Below are positions 3,291 through 49,800 of a DNA stretch of 64,000 nucleotides, in pieces (position 1 is the stretch's first letter; each line of letters opens with the position of its first letter). The notes beneath the pieces were generated by a model. It was not told the DNA's origin and ran no database searches. It was given only the letters and a program-made list of their open reading frames with translations. The DNA lies in the NCBI RefSeq assembly GCF_963576615.1, contig NC_088716.1, positions 61,040,228 through 61,104,227 of the forward strand, written 5' to 3'. Origin of the DNA: Watersipora subatra. Lineage: Eukaryota > Bryozoa > Gymnolaemata > Cheilostomatida > Watersiporidae. The position numbers and the translations under genes were made by a program.

Positions 3291-6200
3291 TGCATGAATT
3301 TAGATCTTGTGTTTGGAATACCAAAGAAAGTGCGGGCGTGTTGGACAAACGGGTGGTTAGTAGAGCCTTGTACATCAATTTCCATACCAAACGCAGTCCG
3401 AGCAATGACATCCATAGTATACGCTTCACAATAGCTACAAACCAAAGTATACCATTAGACATGCTGGGTATGTACGTACACTGTCCAGCTACTGTAAATG
3501 TATGGTATATTTACAATGCATATACTGAACGTGACAGCATACTGTCATGCACGCTATTAATCCAGGGTCATATATATTATGAACTCATGACATATATATT
3601 GTACACCTGTGACATATATACTGTACACCTGTGACAGATATACTGTACACCTGTGACATTTATACTGTACACCTGTGACATATATATTGTACACCTGTAA
3701 AATATATGTAGGTCTGTGATACATCCTGTGTACATATATGACATATATATTGTATACTTGCGCCTAGAATATGGTATATTTGTAGCATATGTACTACACA
3801 CCTGCAACATACAGACCCTGCATATACTACACATATCCTGTAAATCTAAACCAGACATGGCAAATGTCAGATGATCCCTTGTATGCAAACTAAAGTTACA
3901 CTCTACAAACATTATACCTGTATGTTACATTTCTAGTTGATGTGTGACAAGCAGCAATAAAACATTATACATGTACCTGTATGTTACATTTCTAGTTGGC
4001 GTGTGACAAGCTGCAATGAAGAACACTATATGTTAAATAATCAACGTATCTCTATCAATAGTTTAATAAGACTCCAAATGTGCTACACATATGAGCTGAC
4101 TCTCAAAGATTCTGAACTAACCTCACGCTGCACCACCTGCTCTGCATCACTTGTGCTGCAACACCTGAGCTGCAGCACCTGCGCCATACTACCTGCATTG
4201 CACTACCTGATCGCATCACCTGCACTGCACCACCTGCACTGCATCACTTGTGCTGCAACACCTGAGCTGCAGCACCTGCGCCATACTACCTGCATCGCAC
4301 TACCTGCATCGCACTACCTGATCACATCACCTGCACAGCACCACCTGCACTGCACCACCTGCATTATACTACCTGCACTGCACCACCTGCATTATACTAC
4401 CCGCACTGCACCACCTGCGTTCCACATATGTTAAATCCACAATAGCAAACTATTTGAATTTTTATTTATCATAATAGACCGAGCCTTCTGCGTCTCATAA
4501 AATCGAAGAAGTAATGGTGGACAAGAAAGACGGACAAACAAACAAACAGACAATATTATCTTCGTCCCTTAACATAAGGGTGTGATAATAACTTACGCTT
4601 TGATGCCAAATGGAGCTGAGGAGGTTTTATGTATGTACTCCATGAACCTGTCCGCGCAGTCAGTAATCACCCCATGCATCTGTCATACATTGAAATGTCT
4701 TCAAAAATAAATTGATCAAAATTTTTCAGAATGGACAGAACTAGATAATAGTATCGCAGTACTCAACTAAAGCCAAATAAAGATAAATTTCACAAGTTCA
4801 CTTTATGAACACGTAGCAACTTGTGAGGGTTACAAAACAAGTGCACAAATCACTCCAGGTAGGTAGTAGCTAATATATGGAAGCTATCCATAAGCATTAT
4901 GAAGACTTTAAAATGTCCATTCACTGAAGCTGTAAATAACCTGGCCTAAGTACCAGGTTAAACTGAAGTCACTCTGTTAACCAATACACAGTCATAAAGG
5001 TTTTTTGAAGAGCGTCATAAAATTTGAGCATTGGCTTGTCTCCATAGATATGTATTTCAACAGATGATGCTCAAATAATGCTAACAGCCTTGCTCTTCAA
5101 ATAATGTTTTGTAAGTTGAAGTGAAAAAGCAGATGGAAAAAAAAACATAAACATAAAAATAATAACAAAATATATATTAGGTCACTTAAAATATATTTAA
5201 AAAAAGACAGAGTAAGTCACTGTTATAATGTGGAGTTTCCAGTAGGTTATTTATTGTATATTTATTGTAGGTTACAAATGTATTGATAGATACAAGGTAA
5301 GGCAACTGCCTAGCTCAGCTACTTAATCCATACTGAGGAGTCATAAAAATAACCCCTGAACTACCCATAACATTGCTGCAAGGTCACAGATACTTAGAGC
5401 GCATATAACAGTCACGGCTCTATGACTGAGCCTTAGCAACAGCAAGCCTACCATTCTACTCAGTGTTCAATGAACGCCTCTTTTTATTAATTATCTCTTT
5501 GTTAAGTTGGTTTGTAAATAAAATTTCAGTTTTTACCTTTAGCCTTGTATTTATTTGTGTGTAACATATTTCTTCTAATACTGCATGTAACTATTTAGTA
5601 TTTGACACAATTTTTGGGCTCTGGTAAGAATTGAGCAAAATACCATGTATTCTAATAGTTTCACCAACACGCAACAGGTTCGACATACAAAGCTAATATA
5701 AGAACAGATTAATTTGGTATTTAATAGGTTGATTGTGCTATCCAACAATTTATCACACATGAGTTCTCATAACCTAGTGAGTTCCGAGAACAATTTCAAG
5801 GTCTTACTTGCTTGAGTTTCCCAGAAGTAAATGTTGGAGTGAGAGTTGATCGTACGTGTTTCCAATGATCATCTTTGATGAGCAGCAAACTTGCACCCAT
5901 GTCATCATCTCGCTGAAGAGGATCTCTACGATTGGTGAAGCTGGAAAACTCCTTAATACATACCTGCTTAGCAAATTCAGCATCTGCTACATCAATAACA
6001 GGCAAGCGACCTTGGAATGACCTGCAACAAGTACCACAAAGTGTTTGTGATTGACATTTCACTGCTCCAACTTGTGGCTGAGATAATTGAGAGCCAGGCA
6101 CAACCATTAAAAGTAGTCTTGGGTGTATCAGAGTGTAGGATATTAGACACAGTCATATCAGTAGACTTGGGCCTATTAGAGTGTAGGATATTAGACCCAG

Positions 6201-9200: not shown

Positions 9201-12200
9201 TTAGTGAGAATAGAAATAGTGTAAAATAGAAAATATTTCAACAAACTTTGGGCTGACCAACCTAATGAATGCCTGTCATTAAAACACTTCAATGAAAAAG
9301 GTGGAACAATGCAGCAATCCACAACATGTGTAAAAACCTGTCCTTACTGTGGCTAACAGCAATACCTGCCATTTACTACGCGTAGCCCTGATAACATCTG
9401 CTACAGACAATGTGTACTATGTCTAATGACTAATGCTAATTAACAGTCATACTTGCCACTCGGCATCACAGATAAAAATTTTGCGGAGGTCTTTAACAGA
9501 AAAGGCTTTATTTTATATTTTTTATGAGTTAACTACCTCATTCTCAATATGTTTAGTGCTTTTGTAGCTGAAATTAACTATTACAATTTGTTTGTGTTAT
9601 GCTTGTTGCTTGCATGTTATATTGTTTTATCAGTTGTATTGAGTTATGGTCATTTCTGTTTTGTAGTTGTTGTGAGTCGAGTGGACCTTACATTAAAGCA
9701 CTAAACTTACAAATCTCAAGTTGATTCTTCACCAACTAACAAAAAACATACAAACACACTAGCTCTACTAACAATCACAAACATGGTGCCCCAAGTCAGG
9801 AAATAAAAGACAATTGTCCAGCTGTCTGATAACAATCGTCCTGAAGAACAATCTACTCTGTTGGACTCAGATAGTGAGATTAAGACTTTGACCAGCATCT
9901 AACCATAGAACTGCACCAGTATGAGTGTCGATTTCTTAGCACCAAAGCCTATCCAAGATAGATCCAATCTGTCCAACCAATGGACAAGATTCAAAGAAGA
10001 ATCTGAACTGTTTCTCACAGCTGCTGAGAAGTCAGCGTCGGATGACAAAATCAAGGTGGCGATCTTGCTAAGATGTATTGGACCAAGAGGAGTAGACATA
10101 TTTAAGGCATTCACATTCACAGAAGGAAAATTGAAAGATAGATATGCAGATGTTGTGGAGAAGTTTGATGCCTTTTGCAACCGAGGAACAAACAAGCTGG
10201 TGAAAAGACATCAACTATTGTCTACAAAACAGAATACCATGACTTTAGATGAGTATGTGACCGTTCTCCATAACATTGTTTGGGAATGTCAGCTAGATAC
10301 AATGTATGATGATTTTATGTTACAGGCCTTTCTTCTAGGCATTAATGATGGTCATCTTCGACGAAAACTATTTGATGATGCTGGGGGAGATGGCGGTCTG
10401 AGTCTAGAGCAAGCGATTAAGAAATGTCGCATTGCTGAGAGCTCACAAAAAGACATGACAGTACTTCAAGGTGAAAAAACAGTGAAAGTTGTCAACCCAA
10501 GAAGGAAGATCAGCAAGAGTCATGCATCACAGCATGACCAAGATGAGTCAACAAGGTCTACTCGCCCACTAAGAAAACAAAAGGATCATGTGGAAATTGT
10601 GGCCAATTACATCCACCGAGACAGTGTCCTGCATACGGACAGCAATGTCATACCTGCAAGAAGTACAATCACTACAAGGCCCTCTGTAGATCAAAGAAGC
10701 AAGTGAATGTAGTAGCGGAAGAGGAAAGTGATGAATCCGATGAATCTCTTCTCTGCTTGCTAGTGAGGAAAAATAAGAAACTGATGTTCATTATGAAAAC
10801 ATGTGCGGGTGACAGTCGTAAAGATATCACGTTTCAGCTAGACACTGGAGCCTCGTGCAACATATTGAACTACCGGGACTACTGTGATCTTGGTAAACCG
10901 CCATTGGTTGGTAGTCAATCTAAACTCCGTCAGTTTGATAGATCAGTGACTCGTGCCCTGGGAGGATGTAACATACAGGTAGCCAGGAGATCTCTCTATG
11001 TCTTTGTTCACACACAACCATAGTTTACTATCTCTGGATGCATCATTGGAACTAGGCCTCATATCACTAAAAGAGGAGTGGGTGAATCTTGTGTCAGATG
11101 AAAACTTAGAAGATATACTTGGCAGCTATGAGGATGCCTTTGAGGGAATTGGTTGTTTGCCTGGAGAATATCACATTGAGATTGACAAAGGAGCAGTGCC
11201 AAAACAGTCACAATAGGAAAACACCTCCCTCAATGGTGAACGATCTCAAAGCAAAACTGGATTTGTACACACAGAAAGGAATTCTTGCTACAGTAGATCA
11301 CCCAACAGCATAGATTAGCAATCACGTAGCTGTGCGAAAGCCAAATGGAACACTCCGAGTATGCCTCGATCTGTCAAATCTTAACAGAGTAATACTAACA
11401 GGGTAATACAAAGGAATCATTTCCCAATGCCCACTTTGGCTGATGTGCTATCAGAACTGTGTTAGGCTAAAGTCTTCTCTTTGTGATGCAAAGGACGGTT
11501 TCCTGCAGATAAAACTGAGTGACAGTTCCAGTGATCTTACTACCTTCTGGACACCTTTCGGAAAGTACAAATGGTTGAGAATGCCCTTTGGTCTGTCTTC
11601 GAGCCCGAAGAATTTCAAAGGAGATTGTCTGATGCGTTGAGTGGCCTCAAAGGAGTAACCATGGTTGCAGATGATATCTTGATTTATGGAAAAAGATCAA
11701 CATATAAGGAGGCAGTCAGAGATCACAATGAGAAGCTAGAGAAACTACTGACTAGAGCTGGGCAAGTCAATCTCAAACTCAACAAAGAAAAATGCAAGTT
11801 CCTAATGGAAGAGCTCTCCTGCAATGGACATGTGATAACTAAGGAGGGTATCAAGCCAGATGGTGCAAAGGTAGCTGCTATAACTGCCATGAATCCTCCA
11901 ACTGACAGTGATGAGGTAAGGCGATTTTATGGGCATGTGAACTACCTATCAAAGTTCATCCCAAATTGCTCTGCTGAATGTGAACCTTTGAGACGATTAA
12001 TCGGCAAAAGCTCGGCAGAGTTTGTGTGGCAAAAGGAACAGGAAGAAGCTTTCAAGAAAATCAAACAGTTGATAACTAGCACTAAAGTTCTAAAATACTT
12101 TGACGTTAACAAACCGGTCGTGGTACAGACCGATGCCAGCACAGACGGCTTAGGAGCGGTGCTGCTTCAGGATGGTTGCCCAGTAAGTTATGGGTCAAAA

Positions 12201-14806
12201 AGCTTGACAAATTCAGAAAAGAACTATGCACCTATTGAGCTGGAATTGCTAGCCATCGTGTATGGCATGCAGAAGTTCGATCAGTATGTATTTGGCAATC
12301 CTTCTGTAACTGTTCATACGGATCGCTGCCCTCTTGAGCCAATTTTCCTCAAGCCACTGAACAAGGCACCAAAACGACTCCAATCCATGCTGTTGGCTCT
12401 GCAGCAATATCCCATGACAGTAGTATACAAGCCTGGAAAAGAACAAATCACTGCAGACTTGCTATCAAGATCACCAATAGAACCAGCCACGAAGGGAGTT
12501 CCTGTGGAACAAATATTCATGGTGAATTAATTCAAATCCTTCATGTCGGATCTCGGCACACAAAACATGAAGAGAGACCTACCTGTTTCAGAAACTACCT
12601 ACAATTTCACACAGCAGGAGACCAGCAGAGATGAGGTTCTCAAACAACTCCAGTCAATTATCCTAACTGGATGGCCTCAGAAGCCAGCGGATGTGGTAGA
12701 CAGTATCAAGGTTTACCATTCCTTTAGAGACGAGTTGGCTGTTCTGGATGGTATCATGTATTGTGGTTTAAGACTGGTAGTGCCAACTGCCGCACGACCA
12801 GAAATTCTAAAAAAAACTGCACAGCAGTCATCAAAGGACCATAGCAACAATCAGACGTGCCAGAAGTGCTGTTTATTGGCCCAACATGGCAGAAGATATA
12901 TGACAGAAAACGAAAAGTTGTGTAGCTTGTGCAGTAGAATGACCTGTCCAACAACGAGAGACAATAAAACAACATGATATCCCTGGTCAACCCTGGATCA
13001 GAGTCGAGATGGATATTCTCACACACAAGAATAGAGACTATCTCCTGCTTGTAGATTACTACTCAGATTTCTTCGAGTGTGAGCCTCTCTATGAACTCCA
13101 GTCGCGTGATGTGATTAAGCTGTGTAAAGAGACCTTCTCGAGATATGGTTTTCCTCAACAGCTTCAATCCGACAACGGATCGCAGTTCACATCTGCGGAA
13201 TTTGCGACTTTCAGCAAAGAGTGGGGTTTTCACCATACTACCTCCTCCCCTGGACATCAGCAGTCAAATGGGAAAGCCGAATCTGCAGTGAAGATTATAA
13301 CAAAATTGATGAAAAGAGCTGAATATCCATACCTGACTCTTCTAGAATATCGCAACACTCCAACAGCAGGATTAACGACATCACCAGCTGAGCGGATGTT
13401 TGGACATGCCACCAGGTCTATACTACCAACTAACAGTCAACCACAGGCAGAAGTTTTGCAGCAGAAAGCACAGCGCAAAACACTGATCCAGCAGCAGTAC
13501 AATAAATCAGCCAGAGATTTACCGCAGCTCGAGATAGGGTCTCCGGCGCTGTTGAGAGACTTTCAAACTCTCAAAAATCGATGGCAGCCAGGTCGAGTAG
13601 TTGATCATCTCTCTGATAGATCTTATCTCATAATAAATGATCAAACTAAGCAGTCTGTCAGACGTAACAGAGTAGATTTGAGACCGGTTGCAGATCCAGA
13701 TACAGCAGCTTCACCAGCTAAACAAAATGCTTCTGATATGCCTGATGCAGATAGTCCAGTTAACATACCTTACACGTGTCCATCAACAGAGTGCAGTGAA
13801 ATACCGAGTGCTATGCAACCATCATCAGATAGCAACGAAGAGTCGACTTGTAACACTGGTGCTGTATCCAACTCCAAGATGGCACCAAAACCAGCATGGC
13901 AGAGATCTAGACCCACGAAAACGCCCAGTAAATTTAAGCCATATGTACTATACAAATAGTTTGATACTTGCCACAAATGGACAATTGGGCGCTTGTGTTA
14001 AATTGTCACAAACCATGTAAATTTGATTTATTTCTTATATTTTGTCAGGTGATGTTTTCGTTCATATATTTCTTGCAAAGTCGTGTTAGCTGTCACAATT
14101 TTTTCCATGTGATGTTTCAGTTTGATAAGTTTCAACTTCATGCATGTCACATGTACGATATGTTTTTTTGTTTTGTTTTCAAACTAACCACTTGCAAGTT
14201 ATGCAAAAGGGAATGTTTGTGTTATGCTTGACGCATGCATGTTATATTGTTTTATCAGTTGTCTTGAGTTATGACCATTTCTGTTTTGTAGTTGTTGTGA
14301 GTCGAGTGGACCTTACATTAAAGTACTAAACTTACAAATCTCAAGTTGATTCTTCACCAACTAACAACAAACATACAAACACACAAGCTCTACTAACAAT
14401 CGCAAGCACAATTCTCACCATTGACATCATTTGCGCAGTATTTCCGATGAATGGCAGTGGCTTAGGGTAAGGCAGGCCCATCTTATCAAATGTGTCAAAT
14501 GTTGACGTGCCATACCTGGAACATATATAGGCCTACATGATTATTTAATTTCATATTACATAGATAAGTAATGCAGCGATAATTGAAAATGAAATGCAAA
14601 TTCAATTATACTTACAAAACGTCAGTTTTTTAACAGCTTCGAAATGGAATAATGTGCTGTAGAGTGTAAAGAGACAACATGCACAGGCCACTGAGTAATG
14701 AAGAAGTTAAATAATTTATACTAGGTTATACTAACCAGTAAAGAAGACCACACGCAATGAAGACAAGGGTAAGCCATACAGGGATATCTATTCCAAAAAC
14801 AAGCAT
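3268..14806 (-). CDS. CYP3-clan cytochrome P450, 5' part (six exons)
   Basis: Heme-thiolate monooxygenase of the CYP3 clan, presumably ER-anchored. Exons read by eye: 14736-14806 (start at 14806, hydrophobic anchor), 14419-14515 (PKPLPFIGN), 8994-9049, 5808-6021 (FTNRR, then helix C WKHVR and LTPTFTSGKLK), 4597-4679 and 3268-3434 (EAYTMDVIARTAFG, then HPFV). All joins are in frame with GT-AG introns. Lengths 71, 97, 56, 214, 83 and 167 bp parallel my memory of human CYP3A4 exons 1-7 (71, 94, 53, 100+114, 89, 149) with the same phases, so the fourth exon equals two vertebrate exons fused. About 229 residues are encoded. The I-helix, K-helix and heme-binding parts are not in the window and should lie to the left unless lost. 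Exon 3 is the most divergent (a CxxKK core remains). The last donor is uncertain because the minisatellite repeats it. Confidence 0.85.
3585..3760. repeat. 22-bp minisatellite in the CYP3-clan gene
   Basis: About six to seven imperfect copies of a 22-bp unit built on CTGTACACCTGTGACATATA, in the intron between the exons at 4597-4679 and 3268-3434. The open frames through it are products of the repeat. Confidence 0.75.
4125..4425. repeat. CACCTG-rich short-period repeat
   Basis: Dense, imperfect repetition of CACCTGCACTGC-type words (12-15 bp). A longer ~98-bp period is seen where GCATCACTTGTGCTGCAACA recurs at about 4143 and 4241. It lies in the same intron as the 22-bp array. CACCTG is an E-box word, but here it is simply part of the repeat unit. 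Confidence 0.7.
4426..5807. other. Intronic sequence around a short P450 exon
   Basis: Apart from the 83-bp exon at 4597-4679 this is AT-rich intron of the CYP3-clan gene. No further exon, RNA gene or recognisable element was seen. Confidence 0.5.
6131..6310. repeat. 48-bp minisatellite (4 units)
   Basis: Units start at 6131, 6179, 6227 and 6275, each opening AGTGTAGGATATTAGAC. It lies about 110 bp upstream (in gene direction) of the exon at 5808-6021. Because 48 is a multiple of three, an open frame runs through it, but it is not a gene. Confidence 0.85.
6850..7700. repeat. 42-bp minisatellite, ~20 units, with higher-order structure
   Basis: About 20 tandem copies of a 42-bp unit (core TTGGGCTCGCTACAGTTGTC). 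42 is a multiple of three and the unit lacks stops in several frames, so long repetitive ORFs exist on both strands (14-residue period AYLASDNCSEPNKL on the minus strand). Variant units containing CTAAATAAGCC recur after four and then five units (about 7029, 7198 and 7408), which indicates higher-order amplification. It lies in intron 3 of the CYP3-clan gene. Confidence 0.9.
8195..8962. repeat. 33-bp minisatellite, ~22 units
   Basis: Tandem units of about 33 bp built on GGCATGCATATTGTCA and CTTTAGATAGT. A three-unit (~98 bp) super-repeat is repeated around 8470-8720. Many units carry the palindrome GCATGC. The array ends about 30 bp from the donor of the 56-bp exon at 8994-9049. Confidence 0.85.
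9050..9583. other. Intron 2 sequence without recognised features
   Basis: AT-rich intron of the CYP3-clan gene between its third exon and the Gypsy element. No ORF, repeat or RNA gene was seen. Confidence 0.5.
9589..9783 (+). repeat. 5' LTR of the Gypsy element
   Basis: 195 bp, starting TGTTTGTGTTATGC and ending CACAAACA, directly followed by the primer-binding site. Its partner is at 14214-14408, with about 5.6% divergence counted by eye. Confidence 0.92.
9784..9800 (+). promoter_or_regulatory. Primer-binding site
   Basis: TGGTGCCCCAAGTCAGG follows the 5' LTR without a gap. The TGG start is the complement of a tRNA CCA end. The tRNA identity was not determined. Confidence 0.7.
9921..10706 (+). 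pseudogene. Gypsy gag (capsid-like), frameshifted before the zinc knuckle
   Basis: A 261-codon frame begins ATGAGTGTCGATTTC. Its capsid-like helical region includes NQWTRFKEE, LLRCIGPRG and KRHQLLSTKQ, as in invertebrate Ty3/Gypsy gags. The CCHC knuckle CGNCGQLHPPRQC and a following CHTCKKYNHYKALC are in the next frame (from about 10589), so a frameshift lies between about 10505 and 10588. Translation of the open frame therefore loses nucleic-acid binding. Confidence 0.8.
10586..13959 (+). pseudogene. Gypsy pol: protease, RT, RNase H, integrase (broken)
   Basis: The protease motif LDTGAS is at about 10837. It is followed by a damaged linker with frame changes near 11000 and 11216 and stops near 11313 and 11406. 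RT palm motifs (KDGFLQIKL, RMPFGLSS) lie in one frame, and after a shift near 11575 a VADDILIYG catalytic box follows. RNase H (QTDASTDGLGAVLL) ends with KQITADLLSRSP near 12475. A frameshift near 12810 cuts the integrase zinc domain. The integrase core (13009-13959) is one clean frame with EMDIL, SDNGSQF and NGKAES for D-D-E, then a C-terminal tail. The catalytic words survive but the breaks make the polyprotein non-functional. Confidence 0.85.
14214..14408 (+). repeat. 3' LTR of the Gypsy element
   Basis: 195 bp from TGTTTGTG to CGCAAGCA, preceded by a polypurine tract and followed by the target duplicate CAATT. Five bases further on, at 14414-14418, is the minus-strand GTGAG donor of a P450 exon. 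Confidence 0.92.
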
Positions 14807-18975: not shown

Positions 18976-19248
18976 TTTCAATAGCTATAGCTGGGCGCAC
19001 CTACAGACGACATACGACCAATTTTGAGAAATATAGATATAAGATATATATATTTAATAATATATATATTATATATCATAGATACATCATATATACATAT
19101 AACATGCAAAGCTCATCACTTTTGTGATTTGAGCACTCTGGTGTCGGCACATTGACTTTCTTAAAGTCTGTGAGGCAACTTAGTTGTTCTATGGCAGGAA
19201 GTCAACTTTCATTGGTAATGGGATTTGTGTTCCTTGCCTAAGCTCTGA

Positions 19249-19294
19249 GCTGCACTGATGAGGCTTCAATAGCCGAAAAAGTACTGTATGTAGC
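19249..19294 (+). ncRNA. Hammerhead ribozyme, copy 1 (slightly degraded)
   Basis: Stem I GCTGCA/TGTAGC, core CTGATGA (19255-19261), stem II GGCT-loop TCAAT-AGCC, core GAA (19275-19277), then a nearly palindromic stem III with one mismatch and A at the cleavage position. The mismatch and the A suggest reduced activity compared with copy 2. Confidence 0.75.
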
Positions 19295-19507
19295 ATGAAT
19301 ATATGCTCCCTCACTTCGGTTTGGTTGAGCACTCTGTGAGAGGTGCGACACTATATGCCTTTGTGCAAAGCTCATCACTTTTGTGATTTGAGCACTCTGG
19401 TGTCAGCACATTGACTTTCTTTAAGTCTGTAAAGCAACTTAGTTGTTTCATGGCAGGAAATCAACTCTCATTGGTAATGGGAGTTGTGTCCCTTGCCTGA
19501 GTTCTGA

Positions 19508-19553
19508 GCTGCACTGATGAGGCTTCAATAGCCGAAACAGTACTGTCTGTAGC
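19508..19553 (+). ncRNA. Hammerhead ribozyme, copy 2 (canonical)
   Basis: Stem I GCTGCA/TGTAGC (one G-U pair), core CTGATGA (19514-19520), stem II GGCT/AGCC with loop TCAAT, core GAA (19534-19536), and stem III ACAGT/ACTGT with no loop. The cleavage-site base is C at 19547. Every conserved core position of the hammerhead fold is present. The loopless palindromic stem III would favour a dimeric (double-hammerhead) active form. Confidence 0.85.
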
Positions 19554-19562
19554 ATGAGTATA

Positions 19563-19598
<36 letters not shown>

Positions 19599-19601
<3 letters not shown>

Positions 19602-20740
19602 TCAAACATGGATAACTCGGCCACGGATAGCTCGAAAACATGGTTAATTCGAACGGTTTCTTTGGTCCGTTCCCATGTAATGATAAATTGCTATAGATAA
19701 CTCGAACTCAACACTGTTAATTCGAACTGTTTTTTTGCCCAACGGCTACCGAAACGGTTGTTATCGCTTTAGAAAATCACTTTATTCAAAGCCATAGAGG
19801 TAAACCTCATCTTTTCGTAATTCATAAGCGTTGTTATTACCACCATCGGCAAAATAATTTTGTCAACGACTTTTCTAAAGGTTTGGTGAAATTTGATTTA
19901 TACTGCTATACGATTAATAGCACGGGCTTGCCGGGTCACGCGCGCAAGGATTTTCGCCACGCACATACAAAACAAAACAGCATGTTGTTTTGTATCTGCG
20001 TGGCGAAAATCCTTGAGTGCGTGACCCGGCTAGCCCGTGACGAATAGTTTTCCGACGTTGATTCCGTGTTGAATCAACGTCGGAATGTTGAATGTTTAAA
20101 ACGTCTTAAAATTGTTTTTATTAAACGTATACGTTGTCTTAGCTAAAAAAACTATTCATCGTTTGACCTAAACGCAGAATACGTGTGTACATTCAATAAG
20201 TATCCATTCAAAAAGCGTGAGTGATATGCAATGTACCGTTAAACCTCGTAAAACTTTTAATTGAACTGCCTCGGAGTGTTGCTCTTAACGAATCCCAGGT
20301 AAAGTAAGGGATTTTTCTTTGGTAACTTTTTCTTGAAGTTGCATAAACTTCAAGAAAAATCGGCAAAATTGATCGTGGGTAAAACGCTCAAAAGAAAAAG
20401 ATGTCTTTTCTTTTGAGCATTTCAACAACGATCAAATTTTGCCAATGTCAATCTAAAAAAACGTCCTGGCAATAACATCACCTCAAACAACAAACCAATC
20501 TCAAGTGATAGAAAAATTTCTATACTTTTTGATAAAAACGTTTAAAACTTTACATTAGAAGCATTTAATTTGAAACAAGCCATTTGTGCTTTTGATTTAT
20601 ATTATAGTTTGCATATGTACATGTATCTACTAATAAATAAGTAAATACATGGACTTGTGACAGTGCTCTGATAACTTGAACGCTCTGATAATTCGAACAC
20701 TTTTGCTCGGTCCCTTGAAGTTCGAGTTATCTATGTTTGA

Positions 20741-20743
<3 letters not shown>
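19599..20743 (+). mobile_element. TIR element with nested hairpins, copy A (1,145 bp)
   Basis: It starts CAGTCAAACATGGATAAC and ends with the near-exact inverse (GTTATCTATGTTTGACTG), with TA on both sides, inside an AT microsatellite. The CAG start and TA target suit a Tc1/mariner-pogo (Tigger-type) MITE. Inside are four inverted repeats: a 119-bp hairpin (19921-20039), 14-bp perfect arms TTCCGACGTTGATT (20050-20085), 14-bp arms TTTTTCTTGAAGTT (20327-20359), and GCTCAAAAGAAAA arms within a larger imperfect hairpin (20362-20443). There is no coding capacity. Confidence 0.85.

Positions 20744-20780
<37 letters not shown>
20744..20780. repeat. (TA)n microsatellite
   Basis: Pure TA tract directly after copy A, probably the insertion target. 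Confidence 0.9.
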
Positions 20781-20781
<1 letters not shown>

Positions 20782-20804
20782 AAAGAAGTAAGAGATGACT
20801 AAAA

Positions 20805-20863
20805 ATGAGTTTTTGTTACTAATAGTTTCATGTACAAAGTACAATCATCAGACAACAACTCAT
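20805..20863 (-). ncRNA. Hammerhead ribozyme downstream of the Penelope-like ORF
   Basis: On the minus strand: stem I ATGAGTTGTTGT pairs with ACAAAAACTCAT (11 of 12 pairs). The core is CTGATGA (20851-20845), stem II TGTAC/GTACA with a TTT loop, core GAA plus A (GAAA at 20829-20826), a short stem III ACTA/TAGT, and A at the cleavage position. It lies about 190 bp 3' of the Penelope-like stop codon, where these elements are known to carry hammerheads. Confidence 0.75.
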
Positions 20864-21049
20864 GCTAAAATGACTACCCTATTGCCAACGTTAGGGCTCA
20901 CATTCAAAACTGCATCATTAAAAGATTAAAATATTAAAATCAGGGTACAAGCCTGTAGCTTACATATGAGATAGAGAGCTTTTAAAAGTTATTGTCCAAA
21001 AACAAAGTTTACCAAAAAGTAAATTAAAATGATGTACAGTGAGTGTTTA

Positions 21050-22440
21050 TGTAATACTGTCAGCTAAAAGAAATTTTCTATCATGTCTGCAGGTTGATGT
21101 TATTTCCTGTCGTTTATTCAGACTACTCTTTTCAGGGTGCATAATAATGTAATATTTTTCAAGCAGGCACAAATTGCACAGATTAGAAGTGTTGTTGTAT
21201 GCAGCAGATTGCTTGACGATGCTCCATTTAATGTCATATGCGATGTTGCGATCTTTTAGCGCCCATATATGTTTGCCAAGGCTGGTTTTATTTCTTTTGT
21301 TGGTGTCATTAAATGTTGCTCTGTGGTTAGAGTAGCGAGCCTTAAACGTTGTTTCGCAAAGTCCAATATGTGACTGGTTTTGTTGGTTAGCATCTGTAAC
21401 AGTCGCTTGGTAGATAATGCTACTAGATAGGCAATGTCCTTCCAGCGGGCATTCCTCCGCTCTTCTGCAGTTACAGGTTGTTCTTGTGATGGTATCTTGA
21501 TTTGCTGCACTCTTAATTAGTTGTTTATTATGACTATTATGATTATTATGATGTTGCTGATATTTCCCATGCAGCTGTAGCTGAGTTTTAAGGTATTTTC
21601 ATTGAATATCTTTCTGAGTGGGTGGCCTTTATAAAATACTTTGCGGACCATAGTTATAAAAACATGACATACATTTGTACTCGTTGCAGCATTGAACGGT
21701 GGGTTGTACCATATGATATTTCTTTTTCTGTTAGTTTTACGGTTGCTGTGTTGAATTGGAGTGTATGCCAATTTATGGTGGTATCTGCTTTTGTTTAAGG
21801 CCTCTTGATATATGCCAACTGTTTCTTTGAATAGTCTCACTTGATGATATAGCGGACAGGCGCTTGCTGATGGAGTCTGGTATGTTCTCTAATATCTGAA
21901 GCGGGTGGTTTGATTGGGTATGTATATAACGAGGGACGTTGTTCGGTTTATTGTAAGGCTTGTACGTGTTCTGGTTGATGTCGAGTGTGACGCCCAAAAA
22001 GTTCACAACTTTTCTATTTGCCTCTATAGTTATTTTTAAAGCATACTTGCTAAATATTGCACAGAGTTCTTTCTTTATCTTCTCAGCATGTCTGGGGGTG
22101 CACCTAACCATTCCCAAGCCGTCAGCTCAGTATAAGCCAAAGTTGTTATCATACTTGCTGCTGATCTTATGCAACATAAATAATCCCATCAGCTCGCAGG
22201 TCTCGGCACCATCATATGACCCCATTGTTACATCGAAAGAGCTGTTGTCTCTACTGTTTTTATCCAGCAATTGTCATTGTTTACAAGCACAGATCTTTTA
22301 GCATGTGTAATTATGTTTCTTGTGTCAGGATCTATTGGGGTAAAATCTGACGCATAGTCTAGTGCTTGGTTCATTAGGTCTAATGTGATTGAAGGGTAAA
22401 AGTTAACGACATCAAATGAGATAAAGCTCATAAAGCATAA
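21050..22440 (-). pseudogene. Penelope-like element: RT plus GIY-YIG endonuclease (dead)
   Basis: From 22440 downwards the minus strand shows FDVVNFYPSI (RT palm), then GSYDGAE. The RT catalytic box is mutated: the expected Y-R-D-D reads Y, stop (22127-22129), A, D. Next come NFLGVTLD with a KPYNKPNN stretch, GHPLRKIFN and a C-terminal GIY-YIG domain with IIYQATV and HIGLCETTFKARYSNH, ending near 21050. RT followed by a GIY-YIG nuclease defines Penelope-like elements. Several frameshifts and the lost catalytic residues show it is inactive. The 5' part is missing before copy B at 22522. Confidence 0.85.
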
Positions 22441-22521
22441 AGAGATAAAGCATACAGCTCTTACTTCTAGTAATAGAGCACTATGCTAGAGAAGCGTGAC
22501 ATTACTCCATATATATATATA

Positions 22522-23612
22522 CAGTGAAACATGGATAACTCGCCCTCGGATATAGCGAACACATGGTTAACTCGACTGGATTTGCTTGGTCCGTTCCCAC
22601 GCAATGATAAATGGCTCTATATAACTCGAACTCAACACTGTTAATTCGAACTGTTTTTTGCCCAACGGCTACCGAAACGGTTGATATCACTTTATAAAAT
22701 CACTTTATTCCAAGCCATAGAGGTAAACCTCAAATTTTCGTAATTCATAAGCGTCGTTATTACCTCCATCGACAAAATATTTTTGTCAACGACTTTTCTA
22801 AAGGTTTGGTGAAATTTGATTTATACTGCTACAGTGTATACGATGAATAGCACGGGCTAGCCGGGTCACGCGCACAAGGATTTTTGCCACGCACATAACA
22901 AAAACAGCATGTCGTTTTTGTTTTGTAATTGCGTGGCGAAAATCCTTCCGACGTTGATTCCGTGTTGAATCAACGTCGGAATGTTGAATGTTTAAAACAT
23001 CTTAAAAATTGTGGTAATTAAACGTATACGTTGTCTTAGCTAAAAAAAACTATTCATCGTTTGACCTAAACACAGAATACGTGTGTACATTCAATAAGTC
23101 TCCATTCAAAAAGCGTGAGTGATATACAATGTACCGTAAAAACTCGTAAAACTTTTAATTGAACTGCCTCGGAGTGTTGCTCTTAACGAATCCCAGGTAA
23201 AGTAAGCTAATCTTTGCATAAACTTCAAGAAAAATCGGCAAAATTGATCGTGGGTAAAACGCTCAAAAGAAAAAGATGTCTTTTCTTTTGAGCATTTCAG
23301 CAACGATCAAGTTTTGCCAACGTCAATCTAAAAAACGTCCTGGCAATAACATCACCTCAAACAACAAACCAATCTCAAGTGATAGAAAAATCTCTATACC
23401 TTTTGATAAAAACGTTTTAAACTTTACATTAGAAGCATTTAATTTGAAACAAGCCATTTGTGCTTTTTATTTATATTATAGTTTGTATATGTACATGTAT
23501 CTACTAATAAATAAGTAAATACATGGACTTGTGACAGTGCTCTGATAACTTGAACGCTCTGATAATTCGAACACTTTTGCTCGGTCCCTTGAAGTTTGAG
23601 TTATCCGAGTTT

Positions 23613-23617
<5 letters not shown>
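22522..23617 (+). mobile_element. TIR hairpin element, copy B (1,096 bp)
   Basis: Same family and orientation as copy A, starting CAGTGAAACATGGATAAC and ending GTTATCC...TTCATTG, in AT repeats. The right arm of the large internal hairpin (CACGGGCTAG...) is deleted here: the sequence jumps from AAAATCC to TTCCGACG. The other hairpins remain. Confidence 0.85.
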
Positions 23618-23680
<63 letters not shown>

Positions 23681-24786: not shown

Positions 24787-24836
24787 TATGTATATATATG
24801 TATGTATGTATGCATGTGTATGTATATGTATGTATA

Positions 24837-25956
24837 CAGTCAAACATGGATAACTCGAACTTCAAGGGACCGAGCAAAAGTGTTCGAATTATCAGAGCGT
24901 TCAAGTTATCAGAGCACTGTCACAAGTCCATATATTTACTTATTTATTAGTAGATACATGTACATATACAAACTATAATATAAATCAAAAGCACAAATGG
25001 CTTGTTTCCAATTAAATGCTTCTAATGTAAAGTTTAAAACGTTTTCATGAAAAAGTATAGAGATTTTTCTATCACTTGAGATTGGTTTGTTGTTTGAGGT
25101 GATGTTATTGCCAGGACGTTTTTCAGATTGACATTGGCAAAACTTGATCGTTGTTGAAATGCTCAAAAGAAAAGACATTTTTTTCTTTTGGGGTTTTACC
25201 CACGATCAATTTTGCCGTTTTTCTTGAAGTTTATGCAGATTACCTTACTTTACCTGGGATTCGTTAAGAGCAACACTCCGAAGCAGTTCAATTAGAAGTT
25301 TTACGAGGTTTTACGGTACATTCTATATCACTCACGCTTTTTTAATAGATACTTATTGAATGTACACACGTATTCTGTGTTTAGGTCAAACGATGAATAG
25401 TTTTTTGTAGCTCAGACAACGTATGCGTTTAATTACAACATTTTTTAAGACGTTTTAAACATTCAACATTCCGACGTTGATTCAACACGGAATCAACGTC
25501 GGAAAACTATTCATCACGGGCTAGCCGGGTCACGCACTCAAGGATTTTTGCCAAGAACATACAAAACAACATGCGATTTTTGTTTTGTATGTGCGTGGCG
25601 AAAATCCTTGCGCGCGTGACCCGGCTAGCCCGTGCTATTCATCGTATCGCAGTATAAATCAAATTTCACCAAACTTTTAGAAAAGTCGTTGACAAAAATA
25701 TTTTGCCGATGGTGGTAATAACGATGCTTATGAATTATGAAAAGATGAAGTTTACCTCTATGGCTTTGAATAAAGTGATTTTCTAAAGCGATAACAACCG
25801 TTTCGGTAGCCGTTGGGCAAAAAAACAGTTCGAATTAACAGTGTTGAGTTCGAGTTATCTATAGCAATTTATCATTACGTGGGAACGGACCAAAGGAAAT
25901 GTTCGAATTAACCATGTGTTCGAGCTATCCGTGGACGAGTTATCCATGTTTGACTG
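24837..25956 (-). mobile_element. TIR hairpin element, copy C (1,120 bp, inverted)
   Basis: Reverse-orientation copy of A and B with the same termini (starts CAGTCAAACATGGATAAC, ends ATGTTTGACTG). It keeps the large CACGGGCTAGCCGGGTCACG hairpin and the TTCCGACGTTGATT arms. With copy B it forms an inverted pair around the second TIR element. Confidence 0.85.
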
Positions 25957-25990
25957 TATATGTATATATATATGTATGTATATATATATG

Positions 25991-32838: not shown

Positions 32839-35800
32839 TTATTATGGCTTTTTTTAAACATTGGTTATTGAGCCTAATGTTTCTAATCAGAATTTTAAAA
32901 ATTATCCATCTGCTGTGCTATATTTCTGGATCTATGTGTTGCTCCTTACCTATAATATTGTCGATCTCTTCTTGCACTCTTTTCTTCTTCTCGGGATACC
33001 GACACATTAGCAGCATGGCCCAACGAAGTGCAGTAGATGTAGTCTCTGTTCCAGCGACATAAAGTTGCAACTCATAGATACAATTGTTGTGTTCTAAAAG
33101 AATTCACAGAAATCTGAAGAGGTCTGAATGGAATGGAATACCCATAAAACCAAGAAGGAAGGCAAGAATATTTAGTTCTATGTAGGTATGTCAACAGATA
33201 TGGAGATCTTTGAAGTACCTTACTGTGGTTATCGACAAAAAACTTTCCTTATTCAAGTTATTCACCTAGGCTAATGAATAATGCTTGCAAGATGTTATGA
33301 AACTTATAGCCTTAAGCTGATGGCTGACAGGAAGTAAGATGGTAAGATGGAGCAGTTTCGCTGTGTGACTAGATATCGGCATATCCCTTAGAGAGACATG
33401 CCATACACTCTGTTGATATAACTGGCTGAAAAATTGCTTGCTATCTACGCTAGTCAACTTAATCTCACGATTAAACAGATAAATGCTAAACAAGCTACTA
33501 TGCAAGCCCCAAACATTGCCGATTACCTGAATAGCAGCTGTCACCGTCACTTCGTTCTGCATGTATGAGAAACCTATCCGTTAAATCTCTCGGGTTCTCT
33601 CTATCAAGATCAGCTTTATGCTCATCTATGTATGACTGCAGGCTTGGCATCAAGATTTCCTCATTTAAGTATTTATCTCTTTCCATAGTTGACCCGAGCA
33701 GCCACTCAATACCAGGAATGTTTATGTTAGCTGTAATGGCAATTTTCACACCAAGTGCTAGGCTTTCATCCACCGCTGCAATCAGTCTGTTGAACTTCTC
33801 ATCGTCGTAGTCGAAGCGCTTGGCGTACATCATTTGTGAGATGACATTACATGTTGCCTGAGCGAGGCTATGTTTCAGTTCTATCGGGCTGCTTAGATTA
33901 GGCTCAATAAATGTTGAACAATAATGCCCTATTTCCTGAAGGATTTGGGGCTCTAGTGTTGTCTTTCCCATTCCTTCTTCTCTCAGGGTACTGAGGCTAA
34001 AGGAGCGCAGAGTCTTCCAATGAGGATATGGAGCCCAAAACAGACCTAGAGAAGCAAATTGTTCGATAAGCTGCTAATGATAATTGTAGCTATGGTGGAA
34101 CCAACCAAATAATTGTTCATCATATCAGAGTTTAGGATTTATAAAATTTTACTAATTAAATTAAAGACTTCGTAGATGTATATTAAACGAGTAAACTGTG
34201 TTTCATTTGTTTTCCGTTAGTGGATTGTGCTGCTAGAGCTTAATATCTCACTGGGCCTAAGGCTACGCTTTCGAAAACTGTCATATTCAGACCATTAAAA
34301 AACTCAATGCGCCATTTGCGTAGTGGACCTAAGGCTACAAGGCGGCGAACTTATATTCAGGGTACTAACAAACCCGACATAGCATTTTATACTTTTTACA
34401 AACCTGGTGTCTTTTTTACGATTTCCTGAGTTCTTTTAGAGAGTATACTTCCAGGTGTGCGACTGCTTGTTATGTCACCACGTTTCACGAGTAGTTGGTA
34501 GAAGTTGTCATAGCCACTTATTATCACTCGACGACTAGATCCAAAGGTAAATGTAAATACCTGTGAATAATAAGTCGGCACACTCAATATTTTAGTCTAA
34601 CTTTCTAGGGTTGGTGAAAAATCTGGCTTCCTTGACATATAGAAAAAGTTGACTTCTTCTATAATGTTAAATATGATATTCAGTAATACCTTGAGATACA
34701 AGCTAAGCGCGTTACATGACAGAGCTTGTATGTCAATTTACTCGCATCTCATATAAATTTTTCCACAAAAACAACTAAATACAAATTAAGCAGTTTCCAC
34801 TTGTCCACTGTTTCCTGGTGGTCAACTGGGTAGATTTCGTTGACTTACTAGTTGACCTACTATTTGACCTACTTACTATTTGACCTACTTACTATTTGAC
34901 CTACTTACTATTTGACCTACTTACTATTTGACCTACTTACTAGTTGACCTACTTACTAATTGACCTACTTGAATAAGGCATGCTGTGACCAACCATGATC
35001 CCTCTACGAAAGCTTTCCTAACTTCACTAATTGCTTCCACTTTACCTAAGCTGCAATAAATGTGTTGTCTCCTTCAACTCTAAACTACCCAAGTATCCTG
35101 TGTTCATTCTCCAAAGGTTGGATTCTGCAGTATCTGATAGCAAGAACGATATCTTAAGTTTCTGGGTTTAGATGCTAGCATCCACCAGCATTTTTTATGT
35201 CATTCAGATGTTAGTGTGAGTGAATGAGTAAGTCTAAGCTTCCTTAGACATGGGCAATAGATGCAAGTTGATAGCCTTTCAGGTTCTTTTTGTCTCTCTC
35301 CATATATCTCTCTCTTTGTCTCTCACCGTATGTCTTTCTTTATGTTTCTGTTTTCCTGTTTTTTCTGATCTGCTGTTAGCTTTACTCCCAGGAGCCTGTT
35401 TCATTTTGGCAACTTGATACACCTACTTGCATGTTCTCCATCTCCACATATTCATATGTCTGTACTACTCTACACTTGTACTTTTACTATTTGCATTTCA
35501 TTCACTTACTTAAACCTGCAGAGACCTACTCATCATTTTAGTATTTACTAATAAATAAACCATAACAAACATGCCGTTGCTCAATAATGCTGTTATTCCT
35601 GTGTGTACTGTTGCCTGTTATGGCACATGTACTGTTATACAGTATGCTACCTCTGTGTAAATTATTGCACCCATACACACATCTGTATGTCACACCTTTA
35701 CATACCAATAAACCTACATATACTTACATCACCAATATACCTACATATACTTACATACTAATATACCTACATATACTTACATCACCATATACCTTCCTAT

Positions 35801-46800: not shown

Positions 46801-49800
46801 ATGCACTAGTGCTAGTGCAGTGCCTAGTGCACAAGAATTTCTGCTAGTGCAGTGCCTAGTGCATTTTATATTATTACTATGCCATGCACTAGTGCTAGTG
46901 CAGTGCCTAGTGCACCTTACTGTCGTCTAGCCAGCAAATAGTGCAGTGCGCTCAATACTCACTAGTGGCCCCAAGCCTGGTGGAAAACAATTTATTAATT
47001 ATGAAACTACCACCCGAAGATGGCAAGGTCAAAAAGATACACGGATACGCTGCAATCAACTATTGACTGATGATCAGTGAAATACGCTAGCACAAAAAGT
47101 GCATGTCGGTTAGCACTCAAATGCTAAACTTTATCATGCAACCTGAGTTTGTTCATACTGAGTATACTATCATACAACATAACTCACCTCTGGTCTGTTT
47201 ATACTGAGTATACTATCATACAACATAACTCATCTCTGGTCTGTTTATACGGAGTAGACTATCATACATCATACCTCACCTCTGGTCTGTTTATATGGAG
47301 TAGACTATCATACAACATAACTCACCTCTGGTCTGTTTATACTGAGTATACTATCAAACAACATAACTCATCTCTGGTCTGTTTATACGGAGTACACTAT
47401 CATACAAAATAACTCACCTCTGGTCTGTTTATACGGAGTATACTATCATACAACATAACTCACCTCTGGTCTGTTTATACGGAGTACACTATTATACAAC
47501 ATAACTCACCTCTAGTCTGTTCATACGGAGTATACTATCACACATCATCCCTCACCTCTGGTCTGTTTATACGGAGTATACTATCATACAACATAACTCA
47601 CCTTTGGTCTGTTTATATGGAGTAGACTATTATACAACATAACTCACCTCTGGTCTGTTTATACGGAATATACTATCATACAAAATAACTCACCTCTGGT
47701 CTGTTTATACGGAGTAGACTATCATACATCATACCTCACCTCTGGTCTGTTTATATGGAGTAGACTATCATACAACATAACTCATCTCTAGTCTGTTTAT
47801 ACAAAGTATACTATCAAACAACACAACTCAACTCTAGTGAGTTATGTTGTCAACTTATACTGAGTATGCTATCATCCAATGTAACCTATTTCTGGACTGT
47901 TTATGAGTCTAGATATGTCAAACTGCTCTGAGTGTGAAGTACAGTATATAGCTCTCACCTCGATAGCTTGCCTCTGATTCTCCAACTTGCTGCGCATGAA
48001 TAAGAAATCTGTCAGTCAAATTCCTCGGGTTGTTTTCATCGAGGTCTGCTTTGTGCTCATTGATGTAAGATTGAATTGTGGGTCTTATGACATTGTCACC
48101 AATATACCTGTCTCTATCTATTATGGATTTTGCCAACCAGGTTATACCCGGAATATTCAGGCATGAAACCAACGCGATTTTTATGGACAGTGCCAGACCT
48201 TCATTTATAGAAGAAATCATTGTGTTAAACTTCTCATCATCAAAGTCAAACCGCTTGGCGTACAACATTTGTGAGATTACGTTACACGTTGCTTGTGCAA
48301 GGCTATGTTTTAATTCAACTGGACGATTTAAATTTGGCTCTACAAATTTAGCTAAATACTTTTCTAATTCATCATGAATACTTGGCTCCATCCATGCCTT
48401 TCCCATGCCTTCCTCTCTCAAGGTACTGAGACTAAAAGAGCGTAGAGTTTTCCAATGAGGATATGGCGCCCATAGTAAACCTGTAAAACAGATTCATATG
48501 ATAGAAAATAAATTGAAAACTTTTGCTACAGCAACCCTGACAAAACTGCTCATACCACAATGCGAGAAAAGCCGGGAAGACAAGCAACAGCTCTCTTACC
48601 TGACCCAAAGCTGCTTGCAATGTTCCTCTTATCCTTGATGGTTTATCGGTGGTGACATATTTGACAACAACAACACCCACATGAGTTAACCACGTTAAGT
48701 TCTCACTATGTGCTATAACATGCAATTTTCCATTGATATAACCTTTGCAACCTCATGTAAACGTATTGCACCTCCGTGTACACATATTGCCCTCTCACAT
48801 ACACGTATTGCAACCTCATGTACACATATTGCACTCTTTTGTACACATACTGCATTCTCATGTAAACATTACACCTTGGTGTACACATATTGCACCCTCA
48901 TGTACATGTATTGCAACCTGATGTACCCATATTGCAACTTCGTGTACACATACTGCACTCTCATGTAAACATATTGCAACCTTATGTAAACATATTGCAC
49001 CCTTATGTAAACATATTGCACCTCCGTGTACAAATATTGCACTCTCATATACACACATTGCAACTTCATGTACACATATTGCGCCTTCTTGTACACATAT
49101 TGCACTTTCTTGTACACAGACTGCACTCTCATGTAAACATATTCCACCTATGCGTACACATATTGCACCATCATGTACATGTATTGCAACCTTATGTACA
49201 CATATTTCACTTTCGTGTACATATATTGTACTCTCATGTACACATATTGCACCCTCATGTACACATAGTCCACTTTCATGCACACATATTGCACCTTCAT
49301 GTACACATATTGCACCCTATATATATTGCACACTGCACATATACGAATGATCGTTTATTAAAATAATATGGTCAGAACTACTCATTATCTCTTCAGGGCA
49401 ATAGCCTTTTTGAAAATCAGTAAAAAGTGAATACAACTCCATAACATAATACACAGGTTTTTACTGCAGCTGAACCAGCGTGTGCCATGAAGTGCTTTGA
49501 AACGATTGAGAATCATTTGCCCAGTTCACCGTTTAGTGTAAATAAACGAGGTGTATTCACGCAGCTAACTAGTGATATATAGAGAGCAGATTTAGCTTAC
49601 CCGGTGTCTGCTCCACTAAATCTTTACCAGTCTGAGATAGAAAGCTTCTTGGACTTCTCACGCTTGTTATTCCTCCGCGTTTGACCAGAAGTTCATAAAA
49701 ATTGTCATAACCACTTATTACCACTCGATTGTTTGAGCCGAATGCAAATGTGAAGACCTACGATTGATCAAAATACTAACCATAAAATGATGTTATTTAT

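Follow-up and report, generated by a model that had tools for sequence, protein, structure and literature searches.

Start-site hairpins shared with Penelope-like elements suggest a probable helper for a hammerhead retrozyme of the bryozoan Watersipora subatra

Which enzyme moves the retrozymes of animals is the question raised by a short tandem array in a 64,000-nt stretch of the Watersipora subatra genome (NC_088716.1, positions 61,040,228 to 61,104,227 of the forward strand; hereafter the window). Metazoan retrozymes, as described in part of PMC7229834, combine a type I hammerhead ribozyme with a tandem monomer of ~150–450 bp that is non-coding, below 50% GC, present in many copies and strongly self-paired, and the same part of that paper calls Penelope-like elements (PLEs) a strong candidate helper on general grounds. 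A 2020 review (PMC7761336) states, in one of its parts, that animal retrozymes show no motif betraying their partner. The reverse transcriptase of one PLE has been reported to start internally at two sites by a stem-loop, on AT-rich targets (PMC11167929), and a portion of PMC3846280 describes PLE copies placed head to head, partial tandem copies and insertion into AT-rich DNA. Herein we describe a hairpin that the Watersipora retrozyme has in common with PLEs of the same genome and that lies at the start sites of both, which points to a retrozyme that very probably parasitizes these PLEs (Table 1). We found no report of such a shared hairpin in the literature covered, which took in few subscription journals and parts of papers and is thus weak evidence of absence.

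Table 1 Features of the retrozyme array and the neighboring PLE in the window
Feature	Position	Strand	Basis or remark
Retrozyme array, 1.77 units of 259 bp	19105..19563	+	459 bp; head-to-tail repeat and genome copies
Unit copy 1 (unit positions 1-259)	19105..19363	+	self-alignment of the repeat
Unit copy 2, stops at unit position 200	19364..19563	+	self-alignment, array ends
Type I hammerhead, copy 1	19249..19294	+	sequence; compared with 130 copies
Type I hammerhead, copy 2, intact	19508..19553	+	every core base; predicted cleavage after C19547
Predicted 259-nt monomer, from the A19288 cut to the C19547 cut	19289..19547	+	sequence and inference from the class
Hairpin H1, GCTC-N-TTGAGCACTCT	19305..19335	+	immediately 3' of start site 1
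Hairpin H2, copy 1	19111..19139	+	hairpin pattern search
Hairpin H2, copy 2	19370..19398	+	motif 63 nt after the H1 motif
Start site 1, TATAT, unit 196-200	19559..19563 (19300-19304 in copy 1)	+	3' terminus in 35/38 arrays
TA microsatellite at the array 3' end	19559..19598	.	sequence
Decayed Penelope-like element, ends approximate	20781..22456	-	3' end in TA tract; classed by motifs and arrangement
Endonuclease piece of the window PLE	21047-21598	-	database relatives
Reverse-transcriptase piece of the window PLE	21773-22126	-	sequence comparison
Hammerhead core of the window PLE	20851-20845	-	sequence
Inverted tail of the window PLE, head to head	22457..22508	+	hairpin 22457-22482, then TA tract

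The initial annotation of this locus had proposed two head-to-tail 259-bp units with a hammerhead in each, and this is borne out, the two copies being identical at 185 of 200 aligned bases with a spacing of 259 bp; the array that it placed at 19106-19558 is real but slightly wider (19105-19563). The hammerhead consists of the core CTGATGA, a stem II (GGCT/AGCC) with the loop TCAAT, the GAAA segment, a palindromic stem III and a stem I (GCTGCA/TGTAGC), and its loops 1 and 2 are present and conserved among copies. Copy 2 keeps all core nucleotides and stem pairs, as the annotation had read it. In copy 1, stem III contains an A.G mismatch and position 19288, where cleavage would occur, is A rather than C, and because of these two changes the window locus may release monomers poorly; judged by its sequence, the window copy looks partly decayed. 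The stem III palindrome (ACAGU/ACUGU) also stood, but the word "loopless" that was attached to it holds only across two molecules, since up to 3 bp and a GUAC tetraloop can form inside a single one. A dimer as the active cleavage form is plausible, and parts of PMC7229834 and PMC7761336 report dimer-assisted cleavage by hammerheads of amphibians and of PLEs. The newt and axolotl hammerhead repeats, as far as PMC7229834 covers them in the part used here, likewise have a weak stem III with a palindromic center and dimers that may aid cleavage, whereas their units measure 330–350 bp (vs 259 bp) and the stem in Watersipora is limited to at most 3 bp with the GUAC tetraloop.

An Rfam scan of the window at gathering score matched the array to no listed family (the best hammerhead match, RF02275, scored 19.7 bits, the cut-off being 52). 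The unit has a GC content of 44.4%, and its circle contains stop-free runs of at most 37 aa on the sense and 66 aa on the antisense strand, in agreement with the non-coding unit that had been claimed. Folded as a circle, it is more stable than 200 of 200 dinucleotide shuffles (z −3.25), with 69% of its bases paired vs a shuffle mean of 64%, and the antisense circle is likewise stable (z −4.05). On these sequence grounds the 259-bp unit is a metazoan retrozyme, a class already described, and the earlier assignment to that class is supported by the type I hammerhead, tandem monomer, low GC, many copies and self-pairing. Compared with the metazoan retrozymes in the relevant part of PMC7229834, the Watersipora unit agrees in hammerhead type, unit size (170–400 nt in the class), lack of a frame, GC below 50%, dispersed arrays, self-pairing and a PLE-rich genome, and differs in having a fixed (TA)n 3' junction beside a hairpin common with its PLEs. 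The plant LTR retrozymes treated in part of the same paper are also non-coding, carry hammerheads and are thought to move via RNA circles, but theirs are type III hammerheads within LTRs, in ~700 bp elements with GC above 55%; a plant-type LTR retrozyme was therefore ruled out here, the hammerhead being type I and an LTR layout being absent. The unit is not a PLE itself either, as it has no frame with reverse transcriptase and GIY-YIG endonuclease. As a separate observation, 28 viral contigs from IMG/VR (loci L001-L028) hold a 24-nt hammerhead core plus stem-loop II exactly as in the retrozyme; the phage hammerheads inspected among them have a longer stem III and lie shortly before an ATG, and the identity may reflect either convergence in loop II or a rule that phage hammerheads follow in general.

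A search of the genome (783.7 Mb in 239 contigs) with the window unit gave at least 154 matches on many contigs, from the best 40 scored of 1,404 candidates. Our sample comprises 39 further array-bearing stretches, and older copies are under-represented in it because the stretches were chosen as best matches to the window unit. Full units measure exactly 259 bp in 95 of 99 cases across the sampled arrays. The initial annotation had staked its reading on further genome copies with conserved cores, and 117 of the 130 pieces with a whole ribozyme keep all core bases, 107 of them with every stem pair as well; at least two intact ribozymes are kept in 31 of 42 locus-and-strand groups. Divergence from the consensus is 48/5,980 bases (0.0080) in the ribozyme vs 568/23,854 (0.0238) upstream, and only 8 of 259 circular blocks of ribozyme length, several of them overlapping the ribozyme, are equally or more conserved. 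With one unit per array and two diverged inverted copies omitted (36 of 38 rows), divergence amounts to 0.0054 in the ribozyme, 0.0042 in H2 and 0.0159 in H1 vs 0.0270 elsewhere; with all 38 rows these values become 0.0097, 0.0064, 0.0316 and 0.0324, so that the contrast survives for the ribozyme and H2 but not for H1.

The consensus fold has 88 pairs, which are retained in 98.6% of alignment cells (alignment A1, from which L044, L045, L058 and L059 were omitted, as they were from the covariance scan of the arrays described below). Pairs changed on both sides number 8 vs 2.4 in shuffles (0/500 as high), a support that is abolished by sliding the pairing partners along the alignment, and one consensus pair occurs as UA in 22, CG in 11 and UG in 3 sequences. 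The number of further pair types (34 vs 32.1 in shuffles, 29/500) is less clear. These controls are indicative, since one alignment of related sequences served both to derive the fold and to assess it; from the sequence we read the conserved fold as selection on a functional RNA.

Two of the 40 arrays, L045 and L059, were set aside because they are probably copies of L044 and L058 made by segmental duplication, which leaves 38 distinct arrays. In 35 of these the 3' end falls at unit positions 196-200, up to 16 nt beyond the cleavage site, the termini of L044, L048 and L058 lying elsewhere. At the 5' side, 16 of 38 arrays end at unit 255-6 and 14 at 182-200, hence 30 in two windows (binomial 1.6e-21 for both, the windows having been picked after viewing the data); the most populated 11-nt window contains 16 arrays vs a maximum of 9 in 500 simulations. 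A TA-like repeat of at least 10 bases directly adjoins the 3' side in 36 of 40 arrays and both sides in 19 of 40, and these flanking repeats mask any target-site duplications. Units differ by a mean of 0.0101 within arrays (148 pairs) vs 0.0310 between arrays (5,105 pairs), a within-array value that none of 500 label shuffles matched; six units are identical in L040 and five in L043, the least uniform arrays being L071, L072 and L062 (mean differences 0.039, 0.029 and 0.023). Neighboring units differ about as much as non-neighbors (0.0093 vs 0.0107). Because the 3' ends are fixed and the units are alike without a neighbor gradient, the arrays appear to stem from one circle read repeatedly from a fixed start. 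Six of 38 arrays have an inverted word of at least 9 nt in their 5' flank (single-flank shuffles reached 11), and it is clear in about four (L042, L051, L053 and L073); in L042 and L064 the 5' end bears an inverted arm ending after H1, as in the long arms of the PLE pairs described below.

The decayed element downstream of the array in the window and its relatives in the genome are elements that we take to be Penelope-like on the reverse-transcriptase motif YRDD, the endonuclease motif, the hammerhead and the arrangement. A protein database search with the endonuclease piece yielded 47 relatives, and an alignment of 28 endonuclease sequences including the query has the Y...YIG pattern and conserved cysteines; Pfam and PDB searches with the PLE protein gave no meaningful match. 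With this piece the genome search returned at least 150 matches (the best 150 scored of 4,237 candidates), among them stop-free frames of more than 700 aa and many minus-then-plus, i.e., head-to-head, neighbors. In one locus (L096, G000:C8:13503700-13511500) tandem PLE copies with the same unbroken frame are spaced 2,455 bp apart, as long head-to-tail PLE arrays. A PLE tail or frame lies near 8 of 38 arrays (L038, L041, L046, L047, L056, L062, L064 and the window), a count based on flanks of ~500–700 bases for most arrays and on 35 arrays scanned with a covariance model. In the window, the retrozyme and the PLE flank TA tracts that are broken by a MITE-like insert (~19598-20746). The simplest reading of this proximity is a shared target preference. 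A PLE on the minus strand of L116 (G000:C4:59414800-59418800) has a fuller hammerhead with a different palindromic stem III (ACAAATTTGT) and shares the TA tract at its end with a retrozyme array; judging by these sequences, the ribozymes of PLEs and retrozymes may both tend to have a palindromic stem III. A second hammerhead family had been suspected in L104 and L064; the hammerhead in L064 belongs to another PLE.

The link between the two kinds of element lies at their start sites. The hairpin GCTC-N-GAGCACT is common to PLE groups A-F (labelled in this analysis from their tails), and in all six groups it stands beside a terminus in (TA)n, as in the retrozyme. Among 46 distinct PLE copies, (TA)n comes before the hairpin in 24 (short) and after it in 18 (long), four being unassigned by a script rule that misfiles some decayed copies, at least L084 with its changed hairpin base. 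Head-to-head PLE pairs have one short and one long arm in 7 of 8 cases, L111 being ambiguous. Five leaders from four loci of group A contain two hairpins 62 nt apart, against 63 nt in the retrozyme, the long end of this group lying just before the second hairpin and the start codon (ATG) directly after H2. Paired hairpins were observed directly in group A only; in group C, TTGAGCAC recurs 118 nt onward, without GCTC, and group D has one second-type hairpin at L106, its partner being absent nearby. At the junction between body and hairpin, TATAT is found in 107 of 112 retrozyme junctions, and the PLE junctions read TATATCA, TATATAGCT, TTATAATTTA and similar, group A site 1 (TACATC) being the poorest fit; these counts include overlapping loci, so not all junctions are independent. 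The order of hammerhead, start site, H1 and H2 is the same in retrozyme and PLEs. Both have a hammerhead upstream of a start site that lies just 5' of a hairpin, a (TA)n target, occasional inverted 5' arms and partial tandems, whereas the retrozyme differs in its lack of a frame, in a canonical hammerhead nearer the start site and in several turns of a short unit.

How much weight the motif bears was assessed in several ways. The hairpin pattern occurs four times in the window vs 0.48 expected (0/100 shuffles), three times in the retrozyme and once in the inverted tail of the window PLE, and among 20,000 shuffled units 30 contain at least two patterns and 13 contain the 11-mer. When one mismatch is permitted, the window shows no enrichment of the 11-mer (4 vs 1.78 expected, 12/100 shuffles as high). 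A covariance model built from 16 PLE hairpins alone matches H2 in 34 of 35 arrays, weakly (~14–19 bits, E 0.015–0.79 each), and as the arrays are relatives these matches count as one repeated observation; H1 is matched in just 4 of 35. In the window the same model scores 16.0 bits at H2 and 13.6 bits at an unrelated site, a further site in L047 scores 17.1 bits, and 263 kb of phage contigs gave zero matches. Local alignment of the unit with four PLE leaders is weak (levels reached by 0, 7, 21 and 63 of 500 shuffles), and BLASTN of the unit against the PLE loci found no similarity beyond inserted retrozyme pieces and one 22-base match (E 0.54). A 10-nt word that the 3' end of the retrozyme has in common with the 5' arm of the hammerhead in the window PLE was dropped, since it occupies different structural places and is probably chance. 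We rest the PLE link on the motif taken jointly with start-site position, duplication and spacing, target and insertion pattern.

Taken together, the sequence evidence makes it very likely that this is a metazoan (non-LTR) retrozyme parasitizing the PLEs of its own genome. Its hammerheads would cut read-through transcripts of tandem units, and the 259-nt monomer would close into a circle, as its class suggests. The PLE reverse transcriptase-endonuclease would then bind and recognize H1 and H2 and nick a (TA)n microsatellite, and reverse transcription would start at UAUAU just 5' of H1 through microhomology with the target, as the junctions suggest. The circle would be copied for about two to eleven units, mostly halting close to the 5' base of either H2 or H1, and the outcome would be the observed tandem array, in which the 3' end is fixed and the units closely resemble one another, presumably made by the PLE enzyme; the window copy would be one such insertion, since partly decayed. 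That animal retrozymes in general are PLE parasites mimicking the start hairpins of PLE leaders, with the same two hairpins marking both cDNA start and stop, we regard as likely, a lower grade given because the paired hairpins were directly seen in one PLE group only. If true, this would name the enzyme that moves animal retrozymes and make frame-less PLE leaders their likely origin. What is new here is the apparent mode of movement rather than the retrozyme class: motif, start site, target and insertion pattern point to PLEs, and exact cDNA start sites are predicted, which makes the prediction directly testable as an in vitro PLE assay exists (PMC11167929).

The retrozyme might instead be moved by a LINE with a TA-rich 3' end or target, its hairpin likeness to PLEs being a coincidence. 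LINEs are listed besides PLEs as possible helpers in part of PMC7229834, and the alignment of the unit with PLE leaders is weak; yet in the retrozyme as in six PLE groups the hairpin directly adjoins the start site that was measured, both kinds of element terminate in (TA)n with near-equal paired spacing, and repeated patterns are rare in shuffled units, so that we hold a LINE helper to be unlikely. Origin as a deletion derivative of a PLE, i.e., a leader with hammerhead, H1 and H2 but minus its frame, is compatible with parasitism on PLEs. It would fit the identical order of these parts and the group A start codon directly after H2, and part of PMC11722881 proposes that retrozymes arose via PLE reduction, but BLASTN gave no similarity beyond the matches named above, the hammerhead sequences differ and the retrozyme hammerhead lies closer to the start site than in PLEs; we see this origin as possible but rather doubtful. 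The preferred reading of a PLE-dependent retrozyme has points against it as well, in that the motif is short, an anole PLE started without homology to the cut DNA (PMC11167929) as against the TA microhomology here, 3 of 38 arrays end elsewhere and the units of L071, L072 and L062 differ by 2–4%.

Ordinary satellite DNA growing by unequal exchange, with the hammerhead as a relic, would also yield tandem units, and the hammerhead repeats of amphibians were for a long time classed as satellite DNA (PMC7229834, in part). Such stepwise growth does not easily account for the array anatomy, as far as the sequences tell: the arrays are short, scattered on different contigs and share a single 3' junction, neighboring units are no more alike than others, and ribozyme and structure are conserved, which leaves this explanation very improbable. 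As to a chance hammerhead-like motif inside a tandem repeat, a strict motif scan of the window matched copy 2 alone, and 1 of 40 Markov-simulated windows also gave one match, so the single motif is by itself not overwhelming. Chance is excluded for practical purposes by the tandem register and by conservation among the genome copies, with a core kept in 117 of 130 copies and better than most of the unit, and we give it almost no credence.

Several further elements were noted in the window. Just upstream of the retrozyme, the segment 18900-18967 (+) resembles a tRNA weakly (16.1 bits, below the cut-off of 29) and may be the head of a SINE. Three MITE-like copies of ~1.2 kb with terminal inverted repeats (~19598-20746, 22520-23620 and 24836-25957) are 88–92% alike, one of them inverted, and all lie inside TA tracts. 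A Gypsy-like retrotransposon at 9589-14408 (+), with Pfam matches to RNase H and integrase, is located between 195-bp repeats that are 94% alike. On the minus strand, a 1,920-aa stop-free frame (51339-57101), BEL-like by eye, is flanked by direct repeats (50116-51174 and 57897-58959) whose two parts stand in swapped order, with 670 bases at 99.9% and 393 bases at 100% identity. Cytochrome P450 fragments on the minus strand (5796-6152, 33498-34073 and 47918-48493) probably belong to a local gene cluster, and together with the PLEs they represent the gene and element content of an animal.
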